Source: Natronobeatus ordinarius (GTDB lineage Archaea > Halobacteriota > Halobacteria > Halobacteriales > Natrialbaceae). From it: DNA of 64,000 nt. Below are positions 3,362 through 61,556 of this stretch, piece after piece (position 1 is the stretch's first letter; every line of letters begins with the position of its first letter). Where the stretch lies: NCBI RefSeq assembly GCF_024362485.1, contig NZ_CP101456.1, positions 1,364,001 through 1,428,000 of the forward strand, written 5' to 3'. Under the pieces are notes generated by a model. It searched no databases and was not told the origin of the DNA. It was given only the letters and a program-made list of their open reading frames with translations. Position numbers and translations under genes: made by a program.

Positions 3362-4430
3362 GAGGGTGTCATAGAATACGTCGCACACGAAAGGGCAGGG
3401 TTGAGAAGCCGTGTCCAGCAGCACTCAAACCCTGCAAGATGAGCCTTGGATAGACGAGTTCTTTAATCTCGTGGCTGTCGAGACACTTCCGCTCTTTGAG
3501 TACCTCGACTTTGACTTTCTCAGCGAGTATGACGTGTTCGCCCCCGCTCGTCGGGGGCGAACACGAGATCATCACCCGCCAGAACTGTTCAAAGGCTTTC
3601 TTCACTGCTACTACAAGGGAATCTACGGGCCTCGTCCTGTCACCCGAGAACTCCAAAACACGGCCGTCTGGCTCAGCTGTGGGTTCGATCGACCGCCGTC
3701 GAGAGACGCGGTCGATCGCTTCCTCACTGACCTCGGACTGGTCGTTGACGACGTGTTCAGTCGCCTCGTCGAGCAGGCCGCTACCTGCGGCCTGCTCGAC
3801 TCTACCTTCCGGATCGATTCAACCGATCTCGAAGCCCTTGCGTGGAACGATGACGCGTCGTGGAACTACGATCCAACGGCCGAAGCCTACTACTACGGGT
3901 TCGGTCTCACGATTGTTTCGGCAGGGCCAAAGATTCCGATTGCAGCGGAGTTTACGCAGGCGAAACAGGCCTCGAAGGAGACGGCGATGCGCGTCACACG
4001 TGACGCGCTCGCCGTCAAACAGCCGATCTGGATGCTTGGAGACAGTGGCTACGACATCCTCGATTGGCACGACTTCCTGCTGGAAGCAGGAGTCGTGCCG
4101 ATCGCCCCGTACAACCCACGAAACACCAGCGAACCGCTCGATATCGAATACCGCGTCGAAAACCGAATCAGCGAATTCACCGAGGATGTGACGCTCAAGC
4201 GTTCGATCCTCGCTGAGACATACAAGCGACGAACGCAAGTTGAGCGAACGTTTGGAGCGTGTTCAGACTGCGGCCTCGGGACGCTGCGCGCCCGAGGCCG
4301 CGTCCATGCGCGAGTACAAGCGTTCCTTGGATTGTGTCTCCGAGTGATCGTCGCAATCACGAACTACGAACAGGGCGAAAATCCGGGCCGAACCAAGCTC
4401 GTGGTATGAGATGAATTGTATGACACCCTC
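3362..4430 (+). mobile_element. complete insertion sequence, ISH11-like
   Basis: The ends are inverted repeats: GAGGGTGTCATAGAAT at 3362-3377 against the complement of 4415-4430, 15 of 16 matching. TAAGAC is duplicated at 3356-3361 and 4431-4436. If the C at 4430 is counted in the duplication, it becomes the 7-mer CTAAGAC and the element is 1068 bp. That size, a short terminal repeat, a 7-bp duplication and a ~330-residue transposase are what I recall for ISH11. The perfect duplication and intact transposase indicate a fairly recent insertion. Confidence 0.88.
3411..4409 (+). CDS. DDE transposase of the ISH11-like element
   Basis: A 332-residue DDE transposase filling the IS between its terminal repeats, with a GTG start 34 bases inside the left repeat. 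The acidic triad is visible: Asp136 or Asp139 in RIDSTD, Asp211 in LGDSGYD and Glu278 in TQVERTFG. The spacing and the R-x(3)-VE-x-F context around the last residue fit IS4/IS5-type enzymes. The C-terminal LRARGRVHARVQ segment is basic, as expected for DNA binding. There is no frameshift or internal stop, so it may be active. Its codons are less GC-biased than those of nearby chromosomal genes. Confidence 0.9.
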   Translation: MSSSTQTLQDEPWIDEFFNLVAVETLPLFEYLDFDFLSEYDVFAPARRGRTRDHHPPELFKGFLHCYYKGIYGPRPVTRELQNTAVWLSCGFDRPPSRDAVDRFLTDLGLVVDDVFSRLVEQAATCGLLDSTFRIDSTDLEALAWNDDASWNYDPTAEAYYYGFGLTIVSAGPKIPIAAEFTQAKQASKETAMRVTRDALAVKQPIWMLGDSGYDILDWHDFLLEAGVVPIAPYNPRNTSEPLDIEYRVENRISEFTEDVTLKRSILAETYKRRTQVERTFGACSDCGLGTLRARGRVHARVQAFLGLCLRVIVAITNYEQGENPGRTKLVV

Positions 4431-4626
4431 TAAGACTGCTGGTTATACTCTGTGGCGGAATTATGCTTAATGGTATTAGTCGAACGAATCTAGCGGCTGA
4501 ACCGCTGATGCGGCTGAGAGTCAACAGTACAGATAATGCAGAGACTGCTTTTTCGCCCCGCAGCGGTCGTATACTGACGAAACCCACCTCCAAAACGGTG
4601 TTATTCGGTATTACTCTGAGTATTAG

Positions 4627-4848
4627 CTAAAGACGGATGATGTCGAACGCGAACTCGGTGTTCCCCGCAACGAGCGTGTCCATGGTATTGGCATCGACAT
4701 CTGGATCATCTCGGTGTTCAGACGAAGCGGGGTTTGATTCCTTCTCATTCCCGTTCTCTAAACCAGGTGGGAAATCCGCGAGACAACCTGACAGGCTGGC
4801 AAGTACTGCACCCGAGAGCGCCAAGAGCTTGCGCCGATTCGCGGCCAT
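4627..4848 (-). pseudogene. truncated serpin-like lipoprotein, N-terminal fragment
   Basis: A 73-residue frame with a clear lipoprotein signal (MAANRRKLLALSGAVLASLSGC, lipobox Cys22), an acidic linker, and then VAGNTEFAFDIIRL before a stop. The last stretch resembles the start of the serpin fold (xNxxFAxDLxR), which in a whole serpin is followed by ~350 more residues; these are absent. A TATA-like CTTTTATGG complement at 4871-4879 sits about 27 bases before the ATG. The stop codon falls inside the 17-bp inverted repeat at 4623-4639, so a mobile element probably cut the gene. The lipoprotein signal is clear; serpin origin is likely but rests on about 14 residues. Confidence 0.5.
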
Positions 4849-4959
4849 ACGCTATGTTCATGAAATCAACCCATAAAAGTGGCTCAAACTGAAAAGCTTC
4901 TTTGAGCTATTCACATTAGCGAACGACGTGCGAGCGAGTGAGTGCAAAGTGAGCCATCT

Positions 4960-5373
4960 TTACTGATTGTGGAGGTAGTCGTAGAACACTCGGGGCGTGA
5001 CGATCTCGATACCGCGAAAAGAGCCGAAGTCAAGTAAGTGTTGGTCACCGGAAACGAGGTAATCAACGTTCCCAGCTACCGCTGCCTCCAGAAATTTATC
5101 ATCATCTGGGTCTTCTTCAACCGCTCTGATGTCTTTTTCGGGCTCTACGAACTCGGCAAAATAGCGGATAGTCTCGACTTCCTTTTGAACGTCTTCCTCA
5201 TCCATATGAAACCGATCAGGATATTTGAGTAGTGTCTCTCGAAACTCCGTGAGCGTAGCCACGGAAACGACGATCTGATACTCGCCCTCAAACCCCGCCA
5301 CGACTACGTTGTGAGGAGTGCCTTTCGAGATTACCGAGGAGATAAGGACGTTCGTGTCTAGAACTGCCTTCAT
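4960..5373 (-). CDS. PIN-domain ribonuclease toxin
   Basis: A 137-residue PIN-domain protein, probably the toxin of a type II pair. The nuclease acids are visible: Asp6 in VLDTNVLIS, a glutamate in TLTEFRETL, then DPDDDKFLEAA and LVSGDQHLL. Family members cut RNA with bound magnesium. It overlaps the upstream AbrB-type gene by four bases (ATGA), so the two are translated together. The pair lies between two complete insertion sequences, a common setting for toxin-antitoxin genes. The length matches the PIN_3/TIGR00305-like group. The RNA target cannot be inferred. Confidence 0.85.
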   Translation of the reverse strand: MKAVLDTNVLISSVISKGTPHNVVVAGFEGEYQIVVSVATLTEFRETLLKYPDRFHMDEEDVQKEVETIRYFAEFVEPEKDIRAVEEDPDDDKFLEAAVAGNVDYLVSGDQHLLDFGSFRGIEIVTPRVFYDYLHNQ

Positions 5374-5633
5374 TCATCAGCGCCCCGCGCTTCGTGGACC
5401 AACTGATCGACGTCCTCCATCGAAAGTTCGACCGTTCCAGCACGTTGTTCGACTCGTTTCTGGAATTCTTCGACCGACGGAAGATCGATCTTTTTCAGGA
5501 CGAGTCCGTAGTCGGTCGGTACGACCATCAACTTCGTTCCCTTTTCGAGGCCGAACTGCTTACGAAGACGGCTTGGGATCGTGATCTGGCCCTTCGAGGT
5601 AACCGTCGTAACTTCGGGATCATCCGTGCTCAT
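5370..5633 (-). CDS. AbrB/SpoVT-type antitoxin and autorepressor
   Basis: An 87-residue protein if started at the ATG at 5633 (MSTDDPEVTTVTSKGQITIP). The swapped-hairpin AbrB signature TVTSKGQITIPSRLRKQFGL is at the N-terminus, and an acidic helical tail should bind the toxin. A longer frame from GTG at 5657 is open, but its first codons run through the palindrome at 5638-5654, so the inner ATG is preferred. The stop overlaps the PIN gene start by 4 bases. The protein should neutralise the PIN toxin and repress the operon; this is family knowledge. Confidence 0.85.
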   Translation of the reverse strand: MSTDDPEVTTVTSKGQITIPSRLRKQFGLEKGTKLMVVPTDYGLVLKKIDLPSVEEFQKRVEQRAGTVELSMEDVDQLVHEARGADE

Positions 5634-5637
5634 ACCA

Positions 5638-5654
5638 CGTAAGAATTCCTTACG
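5638..5654. promoter_or_regulatory. palindrome before the antitoxin gene, candidate operator
   Basis: CGTAAGAATTCCTTACG has arms CGTAAG/CTTACG around an AATTC centre and ends 4 bases before the preferred ATG. AbrB-type antitoxins commonly bind such palindromes in their own promoters. No strong TATA element is visible upstream, so the site could cover the transcription start. Confidence 0.45.
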
Positions 5655-5755
5655 CACAGTCTTGAATCCATCGGTGGATATGCTGCTCTACCGGTCCCCA
5701 GAACAGCTTTCTTTGATGAGGTCGGTTTGTTGTCTCCATTCTGGGCAATAAATAG

Positions 5756-7199
5756 GTCGTGTCCCAAACTCGTCTAGAGTCGTAACTGACTCCTGTGGAA
5801 ACAGGGTCACCTCTGGTATCCAGCCCGAAGTGACCCATGCACGCCACAATCGACGCGCAAGTCACGGTTAGCATCGACTTAGACAAAACGCTACCGCTTG
5901 CCACTCTCGCTGAATCTTTCACAGAGCTTCACCTCGAGGCGACGATCCTCGAGGAGCTTGTCAAAAGCCTCGACGAGCGCCTCGTCGAGGCGTACTGTGG
6001 GGAGAAGCACGCGCGCGGAAACGGCGATCGCCGTTTCCAGCGCGCCGGAACCACAACACGAACAGCTGTGACAACCGCAGGAGAGCACGAATTTTCCCTT
6101 CATCACGTCAAAGACACCGCTGCCACCGGTGACGATCCTACCTACTTCCGCCCTCTCGAAGATCTCATCGAATTCGACGGGCAGCGCATCTATCAAGAGG
6201 ATATTTCGCTCCAGAGTACCGAACTCGCTACGTCGCTCAGCTTTCGTGATGCCGTCGCCCACGGCGACGGCTTCACTCCGATGCCTTCGAGAACGACGAT
6301 CAACCGCCGAGTCCGTGAGTACGGCAGCAAACTCGGTGACTTCGTTCGTGATCGGCTTCCTGGGACGAACGCAGACACTGTCGTTCCTGACGGAACGAAG
6401 TGTCATAGCCAGCAGGACCACTGCACGCACCACGACGTCAACGTCACCCTCGGACAGATCACCGAGGGTGACGACACGGAAACCACGCTCTTAGACGTCA
6501 ATGTGGACGAACCGTGGGCTGAGACAGCAGAAGATCTCAAGGAAAAGGAAGCGGTCACTGACGACGCTGCGGTCGTCAGTGACAGCGAAAACTCCCTCGT
6601 TGATGCGTTCGAAGCCAGTTATCGATCTCACCAGCTCGATCTTGTTCACGTTGGTCGAACGCTCAAGTACAAGCTGTGGAAGGACGGTACTTTCCCACTT
6701 GAAAAGCGGAAAGAGATCGCCTCAGACGTCACTAACGACCTGTTTCATCTGAAGAACTCAGTTGCGCTTCACGCACCGAAGAATGAGCGTTTGGCGATCC
6801 GCGAGCGGATCGACCAAACGCTCGAAAACCTCACGAAGGAGGCGTGGCGCTTAGAGCAACAGGACTCTCCAAAAGCAGCGGCGTACCTCCGAAAATGGGC
6901 ACAAGCAACCGTGACATTCGCCGAACTCGCGCTCGAGGGACAAGAGATACCGTGGACATCGAACGTGGTTGAACGAGCCATGGGAGAAATCTCGAAACGG
7001 TGTAAAAACCAGTGGATGCGATGGACAGAATCCGGCCTAGAATCGCTCCTCTGGCTTAATCTCGTGAGATATGCCGATCCTGAGCAGTTCGCGGCGTTCG
7101 CCGACGAACTGCTCGAGCGATCAGCCAAAACAGCCATCACAATGGAGGTGTCAGTTGACGCTACCAGAGGCGAACTCTAGACGAGTTTGTGACGGGACC
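5756..7199 (+). mobile_element. complete ISH6-type insertion sequence
   Basis: The terminal inverted repeats begin GGTCGTGTCCCAAACTCGTC on the left and, complemented from 7199, GGTCCCGTCACAAACTCGTC; 23 of the first 26 positions match. The 8-bp target AATAAATA is duplicated exactly at 5748-5755 and 7200-7207. The element is 1444 bp with a single transposase gene, matching the known ISH6 pattern (about 1.45 kb, long repeats, 8-bp duplication). The target was AT-rich intergenic DNA; no interrupted gene can be recognised in the flanks. Confidence 0.92.
5837..7180 (+). CDS. ISH6-family transposase
   Basis: A 447-residue transposase with the layout of ISH6/Mutator-like (IS256-type) enzymes. The likely catalytic acids are Asp185 in VVPDGTKCHS, Asp249 in VVSDSENSLVDAF and Glu379 in SNVVERAMGEISKRCKNQW, with the RW characteristic of this superfamily just after. 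A paired-cysteine/histidine patch (HCTHHDVNV) precedes the core. The gene is intact and in frame. It cuts and pastes the surrounding element using its 26-bp end repeats. Confidence 0.93.
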   Translation: MHATIDAQVTVSIDLDKTLPLATLAESFTELHLEATILEELVKSLDERLVEAYCGEKHARGNGDRRFQRAGTTTRTAVTTAGEHEFSLHHVKDTAATGDDPTYFRPLEDLIEFDGQRIYQEDISLQSTELATSLSFRDAVAHGDGFTPMPSRTTINRRVREYGSKLGDFVRDRLPGTNADTVVPDGTKCHSQQDHCTHHDVNVTLGQITEGDDTETTLLDVNVDEPWAETAEDLKEKEAVTDDAAVVSDSENSLVDAFEASYRSHQLDLVHVGRTLKYKLWKDGTFPLEKRKEIASDVTNDLFHLKNSVALHAPKNERLAIRERIDQTLENLTKEAWRLEQQDSPKAAAYLRKWAQATVTFAELALEGQEIPWTSNVVERAMGEISKRCKNQWMRWTESGLESLLWLNLVRYADPEQFAAFADELLERSAKTAITMEVSVDATRGEL

Positions 7200-7416
7200 A
7201 ATAAATACGGTTCACGATCCTACGACAGCTACTCACGGATCTGATTCAAGATCATGTTAGCAAACTAGTGATTTGTAGAACGCTAAACAGTCAAGTTAGG
7301 GACCACAGGTCACCAAGTTCTATATCGCAGAATAGGATTTATGAATTCGGCGGGGGCGCGTGAGCGCCAAACGAATGCCACTCGAGTGAAACCGAGCCTG
7401 CCGGCCGTCAGGACCC

Positions 7417-7421
7417 TTATA
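7417..7421 (+). promoter_or_regulatory. TATA element of the RIO kinase gene
   Basis: CCTTATACG, with TTATA at 7417-7421, lies 25-29 bases before the ATG at 7446, as for a leaderless haloarchaeal transcript. It supports the downstream start codon. Between the ISH6 element and this point (7208-7416) I see no gene. Confidence 0.55.
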
Positions 7422-7445
7422 CGTGCACGGCGGTTACGGCTCGCC

Positions 7446-8342
7446 ATGGTGCGGAACGTCGCCGGCATGCTGCCGGAACTCGAGACGGAGGACTTCTACC
7501 TGCTTTCGGGCGTCGAACAGGGGATGCGCTTCTCGGAGTGGGTCCAGCGGGAGAAGCTCCCGAAATTCACGGGACTCACGCCCGAGGAGGTGGCGTACCG
7601 CCTCGAGCGCTGTCTCAAGCGGGGGCTGATCGAGAAGAAGACGATCCAGTACGAGGGCTACACCCTCCAGTTCGAGGGCTACGATGCTCTCGCCCTGCGC
7701 GCACTCGTCGAGCGGGATACGATCGCCGAGTTCGGTTCGCCACTGGGCGTCGGCAAGGAGAGCGACGTCTACGAGGTTCGCTCGTACAAACCGCTGGCGC
7801 TGAAGTACCACCGCGAGGGCTATACGAACTTCCGCGAGGTACACAAAGAACGGGATTACACCTCGGAGAAGCGCCACGTCTCCTGGATGTACACCGCGCG
7901 CAAGGCCGCCGAGCGCGAGCACGAGATCCTCGAGGCGCTGTACCCCGACGTGGCCGTCCCTCAGCCGATCGACCAGAATCGCCACGCCATCGTCATGGAG
8001 AAGATGGACGGCGTCGAGCTCTCGCGGACGAAACTCGAGGACGAACAGATCGTCGGCGTTCTCGAGTTACTCTTGCGAGAACTCACGCGTGCGTACGAGG
8101 AGGGGTACGTCCACGCCGACATGAGCGAGTACAACGTCTTCGTGAGCGAGGCGGGCATCACGATCTTCGACTGGCCCCAGGCGGTCCCGACCGATCACGA
8201 GAACGCTGTGGAGTTCCTGCGACGCGACGTGACCAACCTCGTCGGCTACTTCCGGCGAAAGTACCCTCGCGACGTCCCCGACCTCGACGTCGAGCAGGTG
8301 GCGACGGCGATCGAGGACGGCTCGTTCGACTCCCTCGAGTAA
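7446..8342 (+). CDS. RIO2-type serine/threonine protein kinase
   Basis: A 298-residue RIO kinase. An N-terminal winged-helix domain (MLPELETEDFYLLSGVEQGM through about residue 90) is typical of RIO2, not RIO1. The kinase core has the nucleotide loop GVGKESDVYEV, catalytic Asp225 in YVHADMSEYNV and metal-binding Asp242 in IFDWPQA. RIO2 acts in late maturation of the small ribosomal subunit. The start at 7446 (MVRNVAG) is chosen over an upstream in-frame ATG because it aligns with the domain and has TTATA at 7417-7421, about 27 bases upstream. Confidence 0.92.
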   Translation: MVRNVAGMLPELETEDFYLLSGVEQGMRFSEWVQREKLPKFTGLTPEEVAYRLERCLKRGLIEKKTIQYEGYTLQFEGYDALALRALVERDTIAEFGSPLGVGKESDVYEVRSYKPLALKYHREGYTNFREVHKERDYTSEKRHVSWMYTARKAAEREHEILEALYPDVAVPQPIDQNRHAIVMEKMDGVELSRTKLEDEQIVGVLELLLRELTRAYEEGYVHADMSEYNVFVSEAGITIFDWPQAVPTDHENAVEFLRRDVTNLVGYFRRKYPRDVPDLDVEQVATAIEDGSFDSLE

Positions 8343-55227: not shown

Positions 55228-58200
55228 TCAGCCGACGGCGGCTTCTTCGGGTGGCTCTGGTTCCTCGGGCGGTTCTGGCTCCGGTTCCTCGAGTGGCTCT
55301 GGCTCCGGCTCTTCTGGCGGCTCTGGCTCCGGTTCTTCGGGCGGCTCAGGCTCCGGCTCTTCTGGCGGCTCTGGCTCCGGTTCTTCGGGCGGCTCAGGCT
55401 CCGGCTCTTCTGGCGGCTCTGGCTCCGGTTCCTCGGGCGGTTCTGGCTCCGGTTCCTCGGGTGGCTCTGGCTCCGGCTCTTCTGGCGGTTCTGGCTCCGG
55501 TTCCTCGGGTGGCTCTGGCTCCGGCTCTTCTGGCGGCTCTGGCTCCGGCTCTTCTGGCGGCCCAGGCTCCGGTTCCTCGGCTTCCTCGACAGTGATCGTG
55601 CGCTCGTCGCTGTCGTCCTCGCTGGCGACTTCGACGACGTACTCGCCAGCCTCGTCGATCGTCGTCGAGAACGTCACCGTCGTCGTCTCACCACTCTCGA
55701 GTGACACCGACTCGCTCTCGACGGGTTCGCCGTCGAGCGAGAAGACCAGGTCCTGAGTCGCCGCCTCGCCGCCGACGTTCTCGACGGCCGCCGACACCTC
55801 GAGTTCGTCGCCTTCCTCGATCGGTGCGTTTGTCTCGGTGAGCGAAACGGCGAACGCGGCCGGCTCGAGGTACTCGCTCGCGGGCTCGGTCGCTGCGGTG
55901 AGCGGCTCGTCGTACCCGAACGCCTCCAGGTCGACCTCCCAGACGAGTCGCTCGTCGTCGGATTCTGGCGTCCACTCGACGGTGAACGTCTCCGCGCCGG
56001 GCTCGAGCGTCGTCGGGGGCTCGTCGTCGGTCGTCCCCTCGACGAACGTACTCCCGACCTGGAGTTCGTCGTCGTTCGGGTTCTCGTAGCCGAAGGTCAC
56101 CTCGAGAACGTCCCCGTCCTCGTCCGGGTTCACCGACTCGACGTCGATCTCGGGCGCGTCGGGACGGGCCTCCTCGAGACAGGCGCTCGCCTCGGGGTTC
56201 GAGATCGCCTCGCCGTCGAAGACGTCGGAACCGGGCGCCGGTTCGAGGATGCCAATCGTCGCGCTGTCGAACGCTCCCACGGCGGGAATCTCGATTAGAA
56301 CCTCGTCGTCCGTCTCCTCGAGGACCGCGTACTCCTCGCCGAGTTCGACGATCACCGTGCCGGTGAACGGTGCGTCGACGTTCACGAGTGCTTCGTCGAC
56401 GCCGAAGCTCACCGAGTAGTCGCTACTGGTGCCGATTCCGGACGGGTAGTACGCTACCTGGCCGACGATGAACTCGTCGCCCTCTTCGAACGTCCCGGTG
56501 AGTTCGGCGCGCGTACACTCGAACGCGACCTCGACGTCGTCGGGGACTTCCTCGAGCGCGTACTCGATCGACTCGTTCGTCAGGACCTCGTCGGCGGCGT
56601 CGCGGACGGCCACCTCGAGCGTCGCGTCGTCCTCGAGGGGCGGCTCGATCTCGAGTTCGACGTCCTCGGCCACCTCGTCGGCGCCGAAGGGGTCGCTCTC
56701 GGCGAGTCGCTCGTCCTCCGCGTCCGTGACCGTCAACACGTACTCGACCGGTGCGCTCGCCTCGTCGACGACGAGCGTCTCGCCGTCGCTTTCCTGGTCG
56801 GCGACGGTAAGCGTCGCCTCGGGAACGTCGACCGCGATAGGCTCCTCGAGGAGGAGTTCACTCTCGGCGTCGAAGATGCGGACGGTGTCGCCGGTCTCGT
56901 TCCAGACCTGTCGGTCGACGCCCCAGTACAGGGTGTCGTCGGTGTCCTCGCCGCTGCCGGTGACGAGCGTCACTTCCGCGTCGGGCCCGAGCGTGAAGCC
57001 GTCGGGGAACGCGTAGGGGGTGAGCGTCTCCTCGGCGACCAGCCCGTCGTCCTCGCGGTCTGTGACGGTCCAGCCACTCATCTCGAGTGTCTCGTTCGCC
57101 ACGTTCTGGAGCGTGACGAACTCCGCGTCGGGATCGTCGTCGACGATCTCGTAGTCGGTGACCTCGAGTGCGCCCACAGCCTCGGGTGCCGAATCGATCA
57201 CGTCGGGTTCGTCGACCGGCTCCTCCTCGAGGGTCACGAACGCGTCGTCGACGACTGGGGCGCCCGCCTGGCCGACGTACGGGACGTCTTCGTCGCCGTC
57301 GGTCTCGACGTACGCGAACGTTTCGTCCCCCGTGGTGTCGAGGTGGGGAACCGCGGTCAGCGTCCGGTTCTCCTCGAGCGGTTCGTCGAGTTCGACCATC
57401 ACGTCCTCGTGTTCGCCTGGTTCAAGGTAGTCGGAGACACCCCGGACGCTCTCGACGGGTTCGCCTTCGTAGAACACCTCGTCGTGGATCGCGACGAAGC
57501 CGCCCTCGGAGAGGTCGACGCGGTCGACGACGACCGTTTCGCCGTCTCCGTCCTGGTCGGAGAACGTGATCGTCGCCTCCCCTTCGACCTCCTCGATCTC
57601 CTCGGCGCTTTCGGTCGCGTCGCCCGCGGCGAACTCGAGGAGCTCCTCGAGGTCGTCGACGCCGACGTCGGCCGCGTAGGCCGTCGTGTCGGCCGCCGTC
57701 GACTCGACGAGGACCTGGAGCTGGGTCACGCTCACGCGCTGGTACTGGATCGCGACCGCGGTCGCCTCGCAGGCGCTCTGGGCGGCGACCTGGAGCTGCT
57801 CGACCGTCGCGACCTGCGCCTGCGAGAGCGCTCCCGCAGACGCCCCTTCGGCCAGCACCTGAATCTGCGTGACGTCGACGACCTGCTTCTGGATCACGGC
57901 CCCTGTCCCGGCGCCGAAGGCGGCCGCCTGGATCTGTTCGACCTCGACGACCTGGTGCTGGACCGCCGAGACGACGGCTCCCTTCGAGGCCCCGAAGGCG
58001 GCCGTTTGCGTTTGCGCGACGGTGACCTCCTGTTGCTGGACGAGCACGCCGCCAGCACCACCCACCGCTGCGGCCTGGATCTGTTCGATCGTCGCCTCCT
58101 GACTCTGGTAGATCGCACCCTTCGCCGCCCCGAACGAGGCTTCCTGGATCTGCGTGATTTCGACCCGCTGGACCTGCTCGATCCGCACCTGCTGGAGCTG

Positions 58201-59187
58201 CTCGAGCGCACCCTTACCGGCGCCGAAGGCGGCCGCCTGCGTCTGCTCGACCGTCACCTCCTGTTTCTGCACGAGCGCGCCCTTCGCGGCACCCTTCGCT
58301 GCCTTTTGCACCTGCTTGATCGTCACTTCCTGGTACTGTTCGACCTCGACGATCTGTTCCTGCTCGAGTTCGAGGAACGTCGCTCCCTCGAGGGCGCCCG
58401 ACGCCGCCCCGGCCGCCGCGTACTGGACGTGCTCGAGGGTGGCCCGCTGGCGCTGCTCGACGGTGATCCGCTGGTACTGTTCGATCACGCCGTAGGCGGC
58501 CCCCTGGGCGGCTTCCTGGATCTTCCCCGCACGGTCGACGTCCTTCTCGCCGGCCTCGGCCGCGGCACCGGCAGCCGCACCGAACGTCGCCACCTGGAGC
58601 TGTTCGACGGTCACGACCTGCTTCTGGGCGATCGCTCCGTGGGCCGCCCCCCACGTCGCGTGCTGCATCTGCGTGGCCGTCACCGTCTGGGACTGGGCGA
58701 GCGCGCCGCCCGTCGACCCGCCGACGGCGGCCTGCACCTGTTCGACCTCGACGCGCTGGTCCTGTACTAACGTCCCGTGGACCGCGCCCGCCGTCGCCCG
58801 CTGGACTTGCTCGACGTCGGCCTCCTGGTACTGGGCGGCCGACTCGAGTGCGCCCTCGAGCGCCGCGGCGCGTTGCTCCTGGCTCACCTCGACGCCCTGG
58901 GCCTGGACGAGTTCGATCCCCTCGTCGACGCCGGCCTCGACGGCGTCTTCTTGCTCCTGTGTGAGCGCCGCCACGTCGGCGTCGGCCGTCGCGGGCTCGA
59001 GCTGAACGGCCGTCAGTTCGCCCGGTGGCGGTCCCGGGTTCGCCGCCGGCACGCCGTCGCCTTCGGCACCGCCCTCGAACTCGTCGGCCACCGCGAGCCC
59101 CCCGCCCCCGAGCATCGGGAACGCAACGGCGCTCGTGACCATCCCGAGTGCGACGAGCACGGTCACCGCGATTGCGACGGCTCTCAT
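55228..59187 (-). CDS. giant secreted protein: Gln-rich repeats, DUF7282, lamin-tail and CARDB-like domains
   Basis: A 1319-residue acidic protein with a signal peptide (MRAVAIAVTVLVALGMVTS). Residues about 100-490 are fourteen or so copies of a ~23-residue repeat, roughly QxQxVTVEQxQxAAFGAxKGAL. Then come a DUF7282-like domain (about 540-660, ITFSDQDGDGETVVVDRVDL), a lamin-tail domain (about 674-784, SGWTVTDREDDG), a second DUF7282-like part (about 789-895), beta domains, a CARDB-like domain (about 1112-1195) and a Pro/Glu stalk of PEEPEPEP repeats to the end (EEAAVG). No C-terminal membrane anchor or sorting signal is seen. It is probably an extracellular matrix or surface protein; the repeat is not one I recognise. 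Confidence 0.78.
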   Translation of the reverse strand: MRAVAIAVTVLVALGMVTSAVAFPMLGGGGLAVADEFEGGAEGDGVPAANPGPPPGELTAVQLEPATADADVAALTQEQEDAVEAGVDEGIELVQAQGVEVSQEQRAAALEGALESAAQYQEADVEQVQRATAGAVHGTLVQDQRVEVEQVQAAVGGSTGGALAQSQTVTATQMQHATWGAAHGAIAQKQVVTVEQLQVATFGAAAGAAAEAGEKDVDRAGKIQEAAQGAAYGVIEQYQRITVEQRQRATLEHVQYAAAGAASGALEGATFLELEQEQIVEVEQYQEVTIKQVQKAAKGAAKGALVQKQEVTVEQTQAAAFGAGKGALEQLQQVRIEQVQRVEITQIQEASFGAAKGAIYQSQEATIEQIQAAAVGGAGGVLVQQQEVTVAQTQTAAFGASKGAVVSAVQHQVVEVEQIQAAAFGAGTGAVIQKQVVDVTQIQVLAEGASAGALSQAQVATVEQLQVAAQSACEATAVAIQYQRVSVTQLQVLVESTAADTTAYAADVGVDDLEELLEFAAGDATESAEEIEEVEGEATITFSDQDGDGETVVVDRVDLSEGGFVAIHDEVFYEGEPVESVRGVSDYLEPGEHEDVMVELDEPLEENRTLTAVPHLDTTGDETFAYVETDGDEDVPYVGQAGAPVVDDAFVTLEEEPVDEPDVIDSAPEAVGALEVTDYEIVDDDPDAEFVTLQNVANETLEMSGWTVTDREDDGLVAEETLTPYAFPDGFTLGPDAEVTLVTGSGEDTDDTLYWGVDRQVWNETGDTVRIFDAESELLLEEPIAVDVPEATLTVADQESDGETLVVDEASAPVEYVLTVTDAEDERLAESDPFGADEVAEDVELEIEPPLEDDATLEVAVRDAADEVLTNESIEYALEEVPDDVEVAFECTRAELTGTFEEGDEFIVGQVAYYPSGIGTSSDYSVSFGVDEALVNVDAPFTGTVIVELGEEYAVLEETDDEVLIEIPAVGAFDSATIGILEPAPGSDVFDGEAISNPEASACLEEARPDAPEIDVESVNPDEDGDVLEVTFGYENPNDDELQVGSTFVEGTTDDEPPTTLEPGAETFTVEWTPESDDERLVWEVDLEAFGYDEPLTAATEPASEYLEPAAFAVSLTETNAPIEEGDELEVSAAVENVGGEAATQDLVFSLDGEPVESESVSLESGETTTVTFSTTIDEAGEYVVEVASEDDSDERTITVEEAEEPEPGPPEEPEPEPPEEPEPEPPEEPEPEPPEEPEPEPPEEPEPEPPEEPEPEPPEEPEPEPPEEPEPEPPEEPEPEPPEEPEPEPPEEPEPEPLEEPEPEPPEEPEPPEEAAVG
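55240..55580 (-). repeat. 24-bp tandem repeats encoding a Pro/Glu stalk
   Basis: About thirteen tandem units of 24 bases (plus-strand form GGCTCTGGCTCCGGCTCTTC and 4 more bases), differing only at a few third positions, encode PEEPEPEP repeats. Such arrays easily change copy number, so the stalk length may vary between strains, and assembly across it can be unreliable. Confidence 0.9.
57715..58890 (-). repeat. array of ~69-bp repeats encoding the Gln-rich module
   Basis: About fourteen copies of a ~23-codon unit, seen on the plus strand as recurring (T/A)(C/G)CTGGA(T/G)CTG-TTCGAC blocks about 60-75 bases apart. The protein pattern is Q-x-Q-x-V-x-V-E-Q-x-Q-x-A-A-x-G-A-x-x-G-A. Copies have diverged at DNA level, unlike the Pro/Glu array, so the array is old. 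Confidence 0.8.
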
Positions 59188-59549
59188 CCGAACCGTCGCC
59201 TCCGATCGACGCTACTGCGTTCCAATCGCCCCGTTCGACCCCTGTAGCTCCGCCTATCGAGTCGCATACGATTCGGAACAGGCGAAGCAGGTGCCGAAGA
59301 AACGCCCCGTCCGTTTCGTCCACCTGGCGGACACAACAGTCGATTGCACGGCGCTCGGATCGGGGGCTCGCGTGGCATCCGGGCCGAACTGGAGACGTTC
59401 GTCCGTTCAGATAATTTCCCCAGGTCGACGAACGCAGTCGACGCCCCGTGGGCCGGTAAAAAGACGTTGCGGGGTCACTCGGCCGGTCGACACGGTCGGC
59501 CGGCTTCGTAAACCGACGTATTGATTATGGTTTACGAGAGTTGACCGAT
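59188..59549. other. divergent intergenic region between the giant protein and bioY
   Basis: No gene is seen in these 362 bases. The right end carries the biotin operator and promoter (separate entry). The left part must hold the promoter of the giant secreted protein; no strong TATA element is evident there. Confidence 0.4.
59507..59536 (+). promoter_or_regulatory. BirA-type biotin operator over the bioY promoter
   Basis: CGTAAACC at 59507-59514 and GGTTTACG at 59529-59536 form a perfect 8-bp inverted repeat spaced by 14 bases. This closely matches the known BirA operator form GTAAACC-N14/15-GGTTTAC. The spacer contains the TATA-like TTGATTATGG about 27 bases before the bioY ATG at 59550, so repressor binding would block TBP access. 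Confidence 0.75.
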
Positions 59550-60131
59550 ATGGCAACACAGGATCGTTCGGTCGAACTCGTCGACGCGGACGTCATCAGA
59601 TCGTTCGCGCGCGCGGCACTGCTCGCGGCGCTGACGGGCGCGCTCGCGTACGTCTCCATCCCGATTCCGTTTTCGTTGGCGCCGATCTCGTTAGGGATCG
59701 TCGGCATCTTCCTCGCCGGGCTCTATCTCGGCCCCCGGTGGGGTACCGTCTCGATACTGCTGTACCTCGCGGCCGGCGCGGCCGGCGCACCGATCTTCGC
59801 CAACGGCAACGCCGGCCTCGGAATCCTGTTCGGGCGGACGGGTGGCTACCTCTGGTCGTACCCGATCGCCGCGTTCGTCATCGGGGCGACCGTCCACGGC
59901 TTCGGCGACCTTCGAAACCCGGCCGACGCGTCGATTCCCGTGCTGACAGGGGGGCTCGTGGCTGGAACGCTCGTCATCTACACCGGCGGCGTCCTCTGGT
60001 TCATGTGGCTCCTCGAGATCGGCCTCCGCGAGGCGATCGCGATCGGCGCGGCTCCGTTCGTCGTCGGTGAGGTCCTGAAGATCGCCGCAACGGTCGCGAT
60101 CGCCAAGAGCGACGTGGTCGACCCGACGTGA
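59550..60131 (+). CDS. bioY: biotin transporter substrate-binding subunit BioY
   Basis: A 193-residue membrane protein of the BioY (ECF S-component) family. Six helices and the family features PIPFSLAPISLGIVGIFLAG, LYLGPRWGTVSILLYLAAGAAGAPIFANG and GRTGGYLWSYPIAAF are visible. It binds and carries biotin. The ATG at 59550 is placed 13 bases after the operator. It heads a three-gene ECF transporter cluster with the ATPase and the T-component. Confidence 0.95.
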   Translation: MATQDRSVELVDADVIRSFARAALLAALTGALAYVSIPIPFSLAPISLGIVGIFLAGLYLGPRWGTVSILLYLAAGAAGAPIFANGNAGLGILFGRTGGYLWSYPIAAFVIGATVHGFGDLRNPADASIPVLTGGLVAGTLVIYTGGVLWFMWLLEIGLREAIAIGAAPFVVGEVLKIAATVAIAKSDVVDPT

Positions 60132-60153
60132 TCGCCGCCCGACTCCGACGCCC

Positions 60154-60858
60154 ATGATCGAGTTTCGCGCGGTCTCCTTCGGCTTCGACGAGGTGGCCGT
60201 CCTCGAGGAACTCTCGCTGACGATCGACGACGGCGAATTCGTCCTGCTCGCGGGTGCCAACGGCAGCGGCAAGACGACGCTCATCCGCCACTGCAACGGA
60301 CTGCTTTCGCCCGACGAGGGCGAGGTGCTGGTCGACGGGACCGACGTCGCCGAGGATCCGGTCGCCGCCCGCACGACCGTCGGGATGGTGTTCCAGCACC
60401 CCCGCGACCAGTTCGTCTCGGCGACCGTCGGCACCGACGTTGCCTTCGGCCCCGAGAACCTCGGCCTCTCCCGCGAAGAGATCGATCGGCGCGTCGCGGC
60501 CGCCCTCGAGGCGGTGAACCTGACCGGCCGCGAGGACGAGCGGATCGACGCGCTCTCGGGCGGCGAGCAGTCCCGCGTCGCCATCGCGGGCGCGCTCGCG
60601 ATGGAACCCGCTCACCTCGTGCTCGACGAGCCGTTCACCGGGCTGGACGAGCCCGCCCGCCGGTCGGTGCTCAGCCATCTCGAGTCGCTCTCGGCCGACG
60701 GCACCGGCGTGATCGTCGCGACCCACGACCTCCGCGACGTCCACGCGCTCGCCGATCGCGTGATCGTCATGCGCGACGGCCGAGTCGCCGTCGACGAACC
60801 GCCCGAACGCGCCCTCGAGTCGCTCGAGGGACTCGACGTTCGCGCCCCCCGATGCTGA
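60154..60858 (+). CDS. bioM: ECF transporter ATPase (BioM-type)
   Basis: A 234-residue ABC ATPase. Walker A is LAGANGSGKTTLIR, the Q loop is MVFQHPRDQFVSATVGTDVAFG (typical of EcfA), the signature is ALSGGEQSRVAIAGAL, and Walker B is HLVLDEPFTGLDEP. It energises biotin uptake by BioY. It lies 22 bases after bioY and overlaps the next gene by 7 bases. Confidence 0.92.
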   Translation: MIEFRAVSFGFDEVAVLEELSLTIDDGEFVLLAGANGSGKTTLIRHCNGLLSPDEGEVLVDGTDVAEDPVAARTTVGMVFQHPRDQFVSATVGTDVAFGPENLGLSREEIDRRVAAALEAVNLTGREDERIDALSGGEQSRVAIAGALAMEPAHLVLDEPFTGLDEPARRSVLSHLESLSADGTGVIVATHDLRDVHALADRVIVMRDGRVAVDEPPERALESLEGLDVRAPRC

Positions 60859-61556
60859 CCTACGAACCCGACGAGACGCTCGCCCACCGGCTCGACCCGC
60901 GGTCGAAGCTCGCCTTCCAGGTCGGCTTCGCGATCGCCGCGATCGCGCGCATCACGCCGCGGGCGCTCGTCGTTCTGACCGTCGTCGCCCTGCTCGCCCT
61001 GGCGGCCGCCCGCGTCCCGCTCCGTCGGGCGCTGTACGCCTACCGGTTCGCGCTGGTCGCCCTCGCCGCCGCGCCGCTCGTCTCGGCGCTCACCCTCGGA
61101 CGGCCGTGGCTCGACCTCGAGGCGGCCATCGTTCCGGCGCTGGCGAGCTACCGCGTGCTGTTGATCCTGCTCGTCAGCGCCGCCTACGTCCGGTCGACGG
61201 CGGTTCGAGACTCCCGGGCGGCGATCCAGCGGACGATCCCGGGGAAAGCCGGTCAGCTGCTCGGGGTCGGCGTCGGCCTCGTCTTTCGCTTCCTGCCCGT
61301 GCTCTTTGCCGACCTGCGGACGATCCGCGAGGCGTCGGCCGCCCGACTCGGCGACCAGCGAGGGCCGATCGACCGTGCGGCGAGAGTCGGAACCCTCGGC
61401 CTCTCTCGAGCGTTCGCCCGCGCTGACCGACTCTCGCTCGCGCTCCAGGCGCGGTGTTTCTCGTGGAACCCCACGCTCCCGGCACTGTCGTTCTCGCGAC
61501 TCGACGTGCCGGTGCTCGCGCTCACACTCGTGCTCGTGGTCTCGCCGTTGTTCTAG
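60852..61556 (+). CDS. bioN: ECF transporter transmembrane T-component (BioN-type)
   Basis: A 234-residue EcfT-family protein with four or five membrane helices. The start MLTYEPDETLAHRLDPRSKLAFQ carries the conserved HRLDPRxKL box, and the coupling helices with Ala-Arg-Ser/Gly-type motifs appear as REASAARLGDQRG and LALQARCFSWNP. It overlaps the ATPase gene by 7 bases. It connects the ATPase to BioY. Confidence 0.9.
   Translation: MLTYEPDETLAHRLDPRSKLAFQVGFAIAAIARITPRALVVLTVVALLALAAARVPLRRALYAYRFALVALAAAPLVSALTLGRPWLDLEAAIVPALASYRVLLILLVSAAYVRSTAVRDSRAAIQRTIPGKAGQLLGVGVGLVFRFLPVLFADLRTIREASAARLGDQRGPIDRAARVGTLGLSRAFARADRLSLALQARCFSWNPTLPALSFSRLDVPVLALTLVLVVSPLF

Follow-up and report, generated by a model that had tools for sequence, protein, structure and literature searches.

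A glutamine-rich 23-residue repeat array, predicted to form a helical solenoid, in putatively exported proteins of haloarchaea

Leucine-rich repeat (LRR) solenoids, including the FNIP/FGxxFN type and Crov588 (PMC9525666), are built from units of about 22–23 residues, each of which forms one helix-containing coil. Two-helix alpha solenoids, represented by TALE and the designed helical repeats (DHR), are all-helical and consist of helix-turn-helix units of 34–50 residues. Gly-zipper sequences (PF13441 and kin) combine GxxxG spacing with Ala residues on one and the same face of the helix. Haloarchaeal surface proteins with DUF7282, LTD and CARDB domains are the fourth system of relevance. Such domains form the C-terminal half of the protein described here. 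They leave its repeat array unexplained, and several homologs have the array without them. The window, which is the whole stretch of 64,000 nucleotides analysed, is from Natronobeatus ordinarius (contig NZ_CP101456.1, positions 1,364,001 to 1,428,000). The features of the gene and its neighbour are as follows, in window coordinates.

55228..59187, minus strand: whole repeat-protein gene, 1319 codons, encoding a putatively exported protein of 1319 residues
59122..59187, minus strand: probable Sec-type signal peptide MRAVAIAVTVLVALGMVTSAVA, residues 1–22, a hydrophobic segment with a cleavage site guessed by eye
57589..58959, minus strand: predicted helical solenoid with capping helices, residues 77–533, 18 helices in the AlphaFold model
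57673..58893, minus strand: core array of 23-residue repeats, residues 99–505, about 14 regular units
57232..57576, minus strand: DUF7282 domain, residues 538–652 (Pfam, E 1.2e-43, two stretches in the protein)
56854..57150, minus strand: lamin tail domain (LTD), residues 680–778 (Pfam, E 1.7e-13)
55612..55848, minus strand: CARDB domain, residues 1114–1192 (Pfam, E 2.9e-8)
55246..55572, minus strand: C-terminal Pro/Glu tail of PEPEPPEE units, residues about 1206–1314
59541–61556, plus strand: BioY-EcfA-EcfT genes for biotin transport, oriented divergently to the repeat gene

The first-pass annotation had described an exported 1319-residue protein with DUF7282-like, lamin-tail and CARDB-like domains and a Pro/Glu stalk. 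This layout was confirmed, and the gene was placed on the minus strand, which had gone unmentioned. The three domains were recovered by Pfam; PF23951 (DUF7282) scores 148 bits against a cut-off of 27, at residues 538–652 only. The Pro/Glu stalk is the C-terminal end of the protein; its coding DNA is a 24-bp tandem array at 55252–55580. Export is suggested by the N-terminal hydrophobic signal. The claim that a membrane anchor is missing is also true of this protein, in which a search for a C-terminal hydrophobic segment found none. However, several Halorussus-clade relatives end in a hydrophobic segment with basic residues. Therefore, some relatives are probably membrane-anchored, unlike the window protein. 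Elsewhere in the window, the stretch 4000–7500 has a G+C content of 50–59%, against 61–71% in the rest, and is possibly mobile or recently acquired. PADLOC was consulted for a defence system, and only a sub-threshold LTD match was returned.

The regular Gln-rich repeats proposed in the first-pass annotation were found at the expected period and number. The lag-23 self-identity of residues 99–505 is 0.305, while shuffled sequences (n = 2000) gave 0.116 ± 0.016 with a maximum of 0.177. An HMM made from nine units detected 14 units in the window protein (E 4.6e-88) and 13–18 in most homologs. The core array of the window protein has a few inserts, 3 and 8 residues long. The unit consensus is (V/A)x(V/I)xQ(V/I)QxAAxGAAxGALxQxQx. 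Gln occupies unit positions 6, 8, 21 and 23 in 95–100% of cases, so that each unit has four near-invariant glutamines, and Gly occupies positions 13 and 17 in 98–100%. Mean Asp+Glu is 7.7% in the array, whereas the C-terminal parts of these proteins reach 26%. The low value in the array contrasts with the acidic charge typical of halophiles.

The distribution of charge within the unit is sharply divided. Among 669 units, which were selected by the HMM and hence with a bias against atypical ones, charged residues make up 14–60% at positions 1, 3, 5, 9, 12, 16, 20 and 22 and 0–0.8% at the remaining 15 of the 23. The low overall charge of the array follows from these 15 positions; the exposed positions still contain 18% acidic and 14% basic residues. 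The four Gln positions belong to the uncharged class, and the near-invariant glutamines are presumably buried. Positions 5, 9, 12, 16 and 20 fit one 80-degree arc of a helical wheel, as do only 0.0018 of all 5-subsets of positions 5–20, and positions 20, 22, 1, 3 and 5 alternate (fraction 0.008). Thus, the pattern is what a helix spanning about positions 4–20, with the chain returning in extended form, would produce. Position 7 is Ile, Val or Leu and is charged in 0.8% of units, which fits a helix starting by position 4–5 rather than a strand running to position 9. Taken by itself, the helical periodicity of entropy at 100 degrees is weak (p = 0.07).

Structure prediction was carried out with AlphaFold on residues 41–534 of the window protein with 40 homologs supplied. 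The model has a pLDDT of 83.4, a pTM of 0.76, 18 helices and zero strands; of the five models, two scored poorly (67 and 51). Each regular unit consists of a single helix, about 16 residues long (unit positions 4–19), and a 7-residue linker. A second, independent run was done on a minimal homolog (L096, listed below), which is about 43% identical to the other rows of the alignment. It gave a pLDDT of 86.3, a pTM of 0.78, five consistent models (79–86) and unchanged helix spacing. DSSP assigned no strand in either model, although AlphaFold may prefer helix for Ala-rich repeats. The first-pass annotation had suggested a beta-hairpin/helix or coiled solenoid of alternating residues followed by a helix. 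The regular solenoid and the alternation, now assigned to an extended linker, are supported; the beta-hairpin is not, given the helix-only models and the charge at position 7. Since the strand-free models and the charge pattern agree, the array is predicted, with good confidence, to be a helical solenoid rather than a stack of beta-hairpins. Sixteen helical residues span about 24 Å and 7–8 extended residues about 24–26 Å. These spans are equal, so a unit could close into a single coil, with the helices parallel. Charge coupling between neighbouring units was compared for parallel and antiparallel stacking; the clades disagree and no consistent topology emerged.

The array was compared with known families and structures. 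The repeat of the window protein has zero matches in Pfam, NCBIfam, PHROGs and PDB sequences. A profile search of PDB sequences returned a chance-level match alone (E 0.85). A scan of 40 homologous arrays gave zero matches in NCBIfam and scattered weak matches in Pfam, none above the cut-off. The commonest weak match was Gly-zipper, in 3 of the 40 homologs (best E 0.0038); the window protein lacks it. Pfam LRR matched neither the window protein nor any of the 40 arrays, and the invariant residues of the repeat are Q, G and A, unlike those of the LRR motif LxxLxLxxN. Foldseek against solved structures gave nothing comparable; the best TM-score was 0.22 for the long model and 0.35 for the short one, and the top matches were TALE and DHR. 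Nothing was obtained among viral structure models at E ≤ 0.001. The open-licence papers searched gave nothing on DUF7282, the repeat, or the Natrialba magadii locus tags beside its bioY genes.

Homologs of the array were found in 103 of 125 Natrialbaceae genomes and 26 of 29 genera, with the family identified from named relatives. It was not found in some genera of the family, and genomes that have it nearly always carry a single full-length copy. An order-level scan matched 88 of 293 genomes, and in a phylum sample of 295 genomes the matches were confined to the order. Named matching records are all from Halobacteria and include Natrialba, Natrinema, Natronorubrum, Haloterrigena, Halopiger, Haladaptatus, Halorussus, Halosimplex, Haloarcula, Halorientalis and others. 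No relative was found outside Halobacteria, where the bacterial side was covered by one pattern-based scan that distant relatives could escape. Plasmid matches are haloarchaeal 'hypothetical proteins' only. A viral origin was rejected, with zero relatives among viral contigs and phage records. The first-pass annotation had recognised no family for the repeat. This holds for named families, but the array appears to belong to a large haloarchaeal repeat family, so far without a name, and is not an orphan.

Conservation of the array is high and specific to each unit. Measured on 23 family homologs, its mean identity between genera is 72%, whereas the C-terminal domains reach 46%. Between species, units that occupy equivalent positions share 72% identity, compared with 36% among units within one protein. 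At the exposed positions these values are 54% and 18%, respectively. In a set of 40 diverse homologs that covers several families, all 40 have E225 and K291, 39 have H183, 35 have H137 and 33 have Y232, which goes beyond what the unit consensus requires. Therefore, the array is old, does not freely expand or contract, and has its own surface for each unit. Judged from these alignments, the conserved unit-specific residues suggest either a surface for specific binding or a particular contact within an assembly.

The array stays constant while the accessory domains vary. The C-terminal parts of the homologs contain one to four DUF7282, CARDB, NosD/beta-helix or carboxypeptidase-regulatory domains, or none, and some shorter homologs have twin-arginine signals. 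In Haladaptatus, a sister version of the repeat places Asn at the exposed positions of the linker (for example NQNVNINVILNAALGAAQGAV). The homologs referred to are listed in the coordinates of their own loci.

L096, 9485–10165, minus strand: minimal homolog of 226 residues, a twin-arginine-like signal followed by repeats only
L076, 5335–10992, minus strand: homolog of 1885 residues, 21 detected units and several DUF7282-like repeats, with a region resembling a right-handed helix and a hydrophobic anchor at the C-terminus
L091, 8929–10794, plus strand: Haladaptatus sister-repeat gene, protein with twin-arginine signal
L092, 8652–10907, plus strand: Haladaptatus sister-repeat gene
L093, 8528–10861, minus strand: Haladaptatus sister-repeat gene
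L094, 8799–10631, plus strand: Haladaptatus sister-repeat gene, protein with twin-arginine signal

A related protein from a plasmid is annotated as 'procyclic acidic repetitive family protein', a name that its Pro/Glu tail probably explains.

From these results, we consider it probable that the gene product is exported to the cell surface, has an alpha-helical solenoid of 23-residue units as its functional core and offers a specific binding surface. In each unit, the helix at positions 4–19 would be followed by the 7-residue extended linker. Neighbouring helices would pack closely through the conserved Ala and Gly on their flanks, and glutamines 6, 8, 21 and 23 would probably hydrogen-bond across adjacent units as amide ladders. 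Such packing may produce a rigid body that is independent of surface charge. One helix face would remain exposed. Because this face varies by unit and yet is kept between species, the solenoid would most likely show a binding surface to another envelope component. The DUF7282, LTD and CARDB domains and the Pro/Glu tail may be exchangeable modules that position or tether the solenoid. The glutamine ladders, the surface location and the binding role have at best an even chance of being correct. The extracellular scaffold suggested in the first-pass annotation was a reasonable guess. The rod-like conserved array, the missing database match and the occurrence across haloarchaea indicate that the array is probably an uncharacterised building block of the haloarchaeal cell surface.

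The main rival, which we regard as rather unlikely, is a beta-alpha solenoid like LRR, with QxQxVxV as the strand, AAxGAxxGAL as a short helix, and Gln ladders along parallel strands. Conserved and variable positions alternate strictly over the 13 residues from position 20 to 32 (p = 0.0004), which taken alone would equally fit a long strand, and the VTVEQ segment has high strand propensity. In-register parallel coils would also account for the invariant ladder residues. However, both AlphaFold models are strand-free, and position 7 is never exposed-like. The Asn-rich paralog of Haladaptatus, with units such as QNVNINVILNAALGAAQGAV, resembles a strand followed by a helix and weakly matches the LRR protein Crov588. 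That match belongs to the paralog, its aligned residues are distributed over N, Q and V, and it was judged largely compositional; the Q-type array itself matches no PDB sequence.

Two further readings differ from the binding solenoid in what the array would do. It is improbable that the array belongs to a Gln-rich matrix protein, amyloid-like or phase-separating, with repeats that fold on assembly only. The 17% Gln and the low acidic content of the array are unusual for an extracellular domain of a halophile and speak for it. On the other hand, the near-constant unit number, the conserved unit-specific residues and an identity above that of the folded C-terminal domains indicate a defined fold, and the AlphaFold models are confident. 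A partnership with BioY-EcfA-EcfT, for instance as an extracellular capture scaffold for biotin or a biotinyl-protein, is more improbable still. In Natrialbaceae the repeat gene sits between a small conserved gene and the divergent transporter genes, which flank it in 24 of 26 main-locus neighbourhoods, the window included. But the orientation is divergent and the small downstream gene is equally conserved there. The gene has different neighbours, without BioY, in the Natrialbaceae loci L061 and L062 and throughout the other families. A functional link through the neighbourhood was rejected because the context holds in Natrialbaceae only.

The binding solenoid remains our preferred reading. 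What appears to be an unnamed repeat family is near-universal in Natrialbaceae and is also present in several other haloarchaeal families, and its predicted fold has no counterpart among solved structures in Foldseek. If true, the buried-glutamine packing would be a way to keep an extracellular protein stable in saturating salt even though it lacks the acidic charge that halophile proteins usually carry. The natural version of 226 residues is a good and easy target for structure determination and for testing the repeat fold.

The comparison with the known systems places the array near several of them. With the LRR solenoids it shares the unit length, one helix-containing coil per unit, a position-specific display surface and possibly amide ladders. 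LRR units have an LxxLxL strand motif, whereas the Q-type array is without it and in the models shows one 16-residue helix and no strand. An all-helical repeat architecture is shared with the two-helix alpha solenoids (TPR, TALE, HEAT-like), but the period of 23 with a single helix per unit sets the array apart from their longer units, in line with TM-scores of at most 0.35. It has the GxxxG spacing and the Ala on the same helix face in common with Gly-zippers, a family not among the Pfam matches of the window protein, and differs in carrying the Gln framework in addition. In the libraries and open-licence papers searched, no description of the family or of its predicted fold was found. Tentatively, and with less than even expectation, we propose a new solenoid class with one helix per 23-residue turn and four stacked ladders of buried Gln, serving as a haloarchaea-wide rigid extracellular scaffold, with the Asn-rich repeat of Haladaptatus as a sister class. 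Solenoid surface proteins are already known as a broad kind, and the array falls within it.
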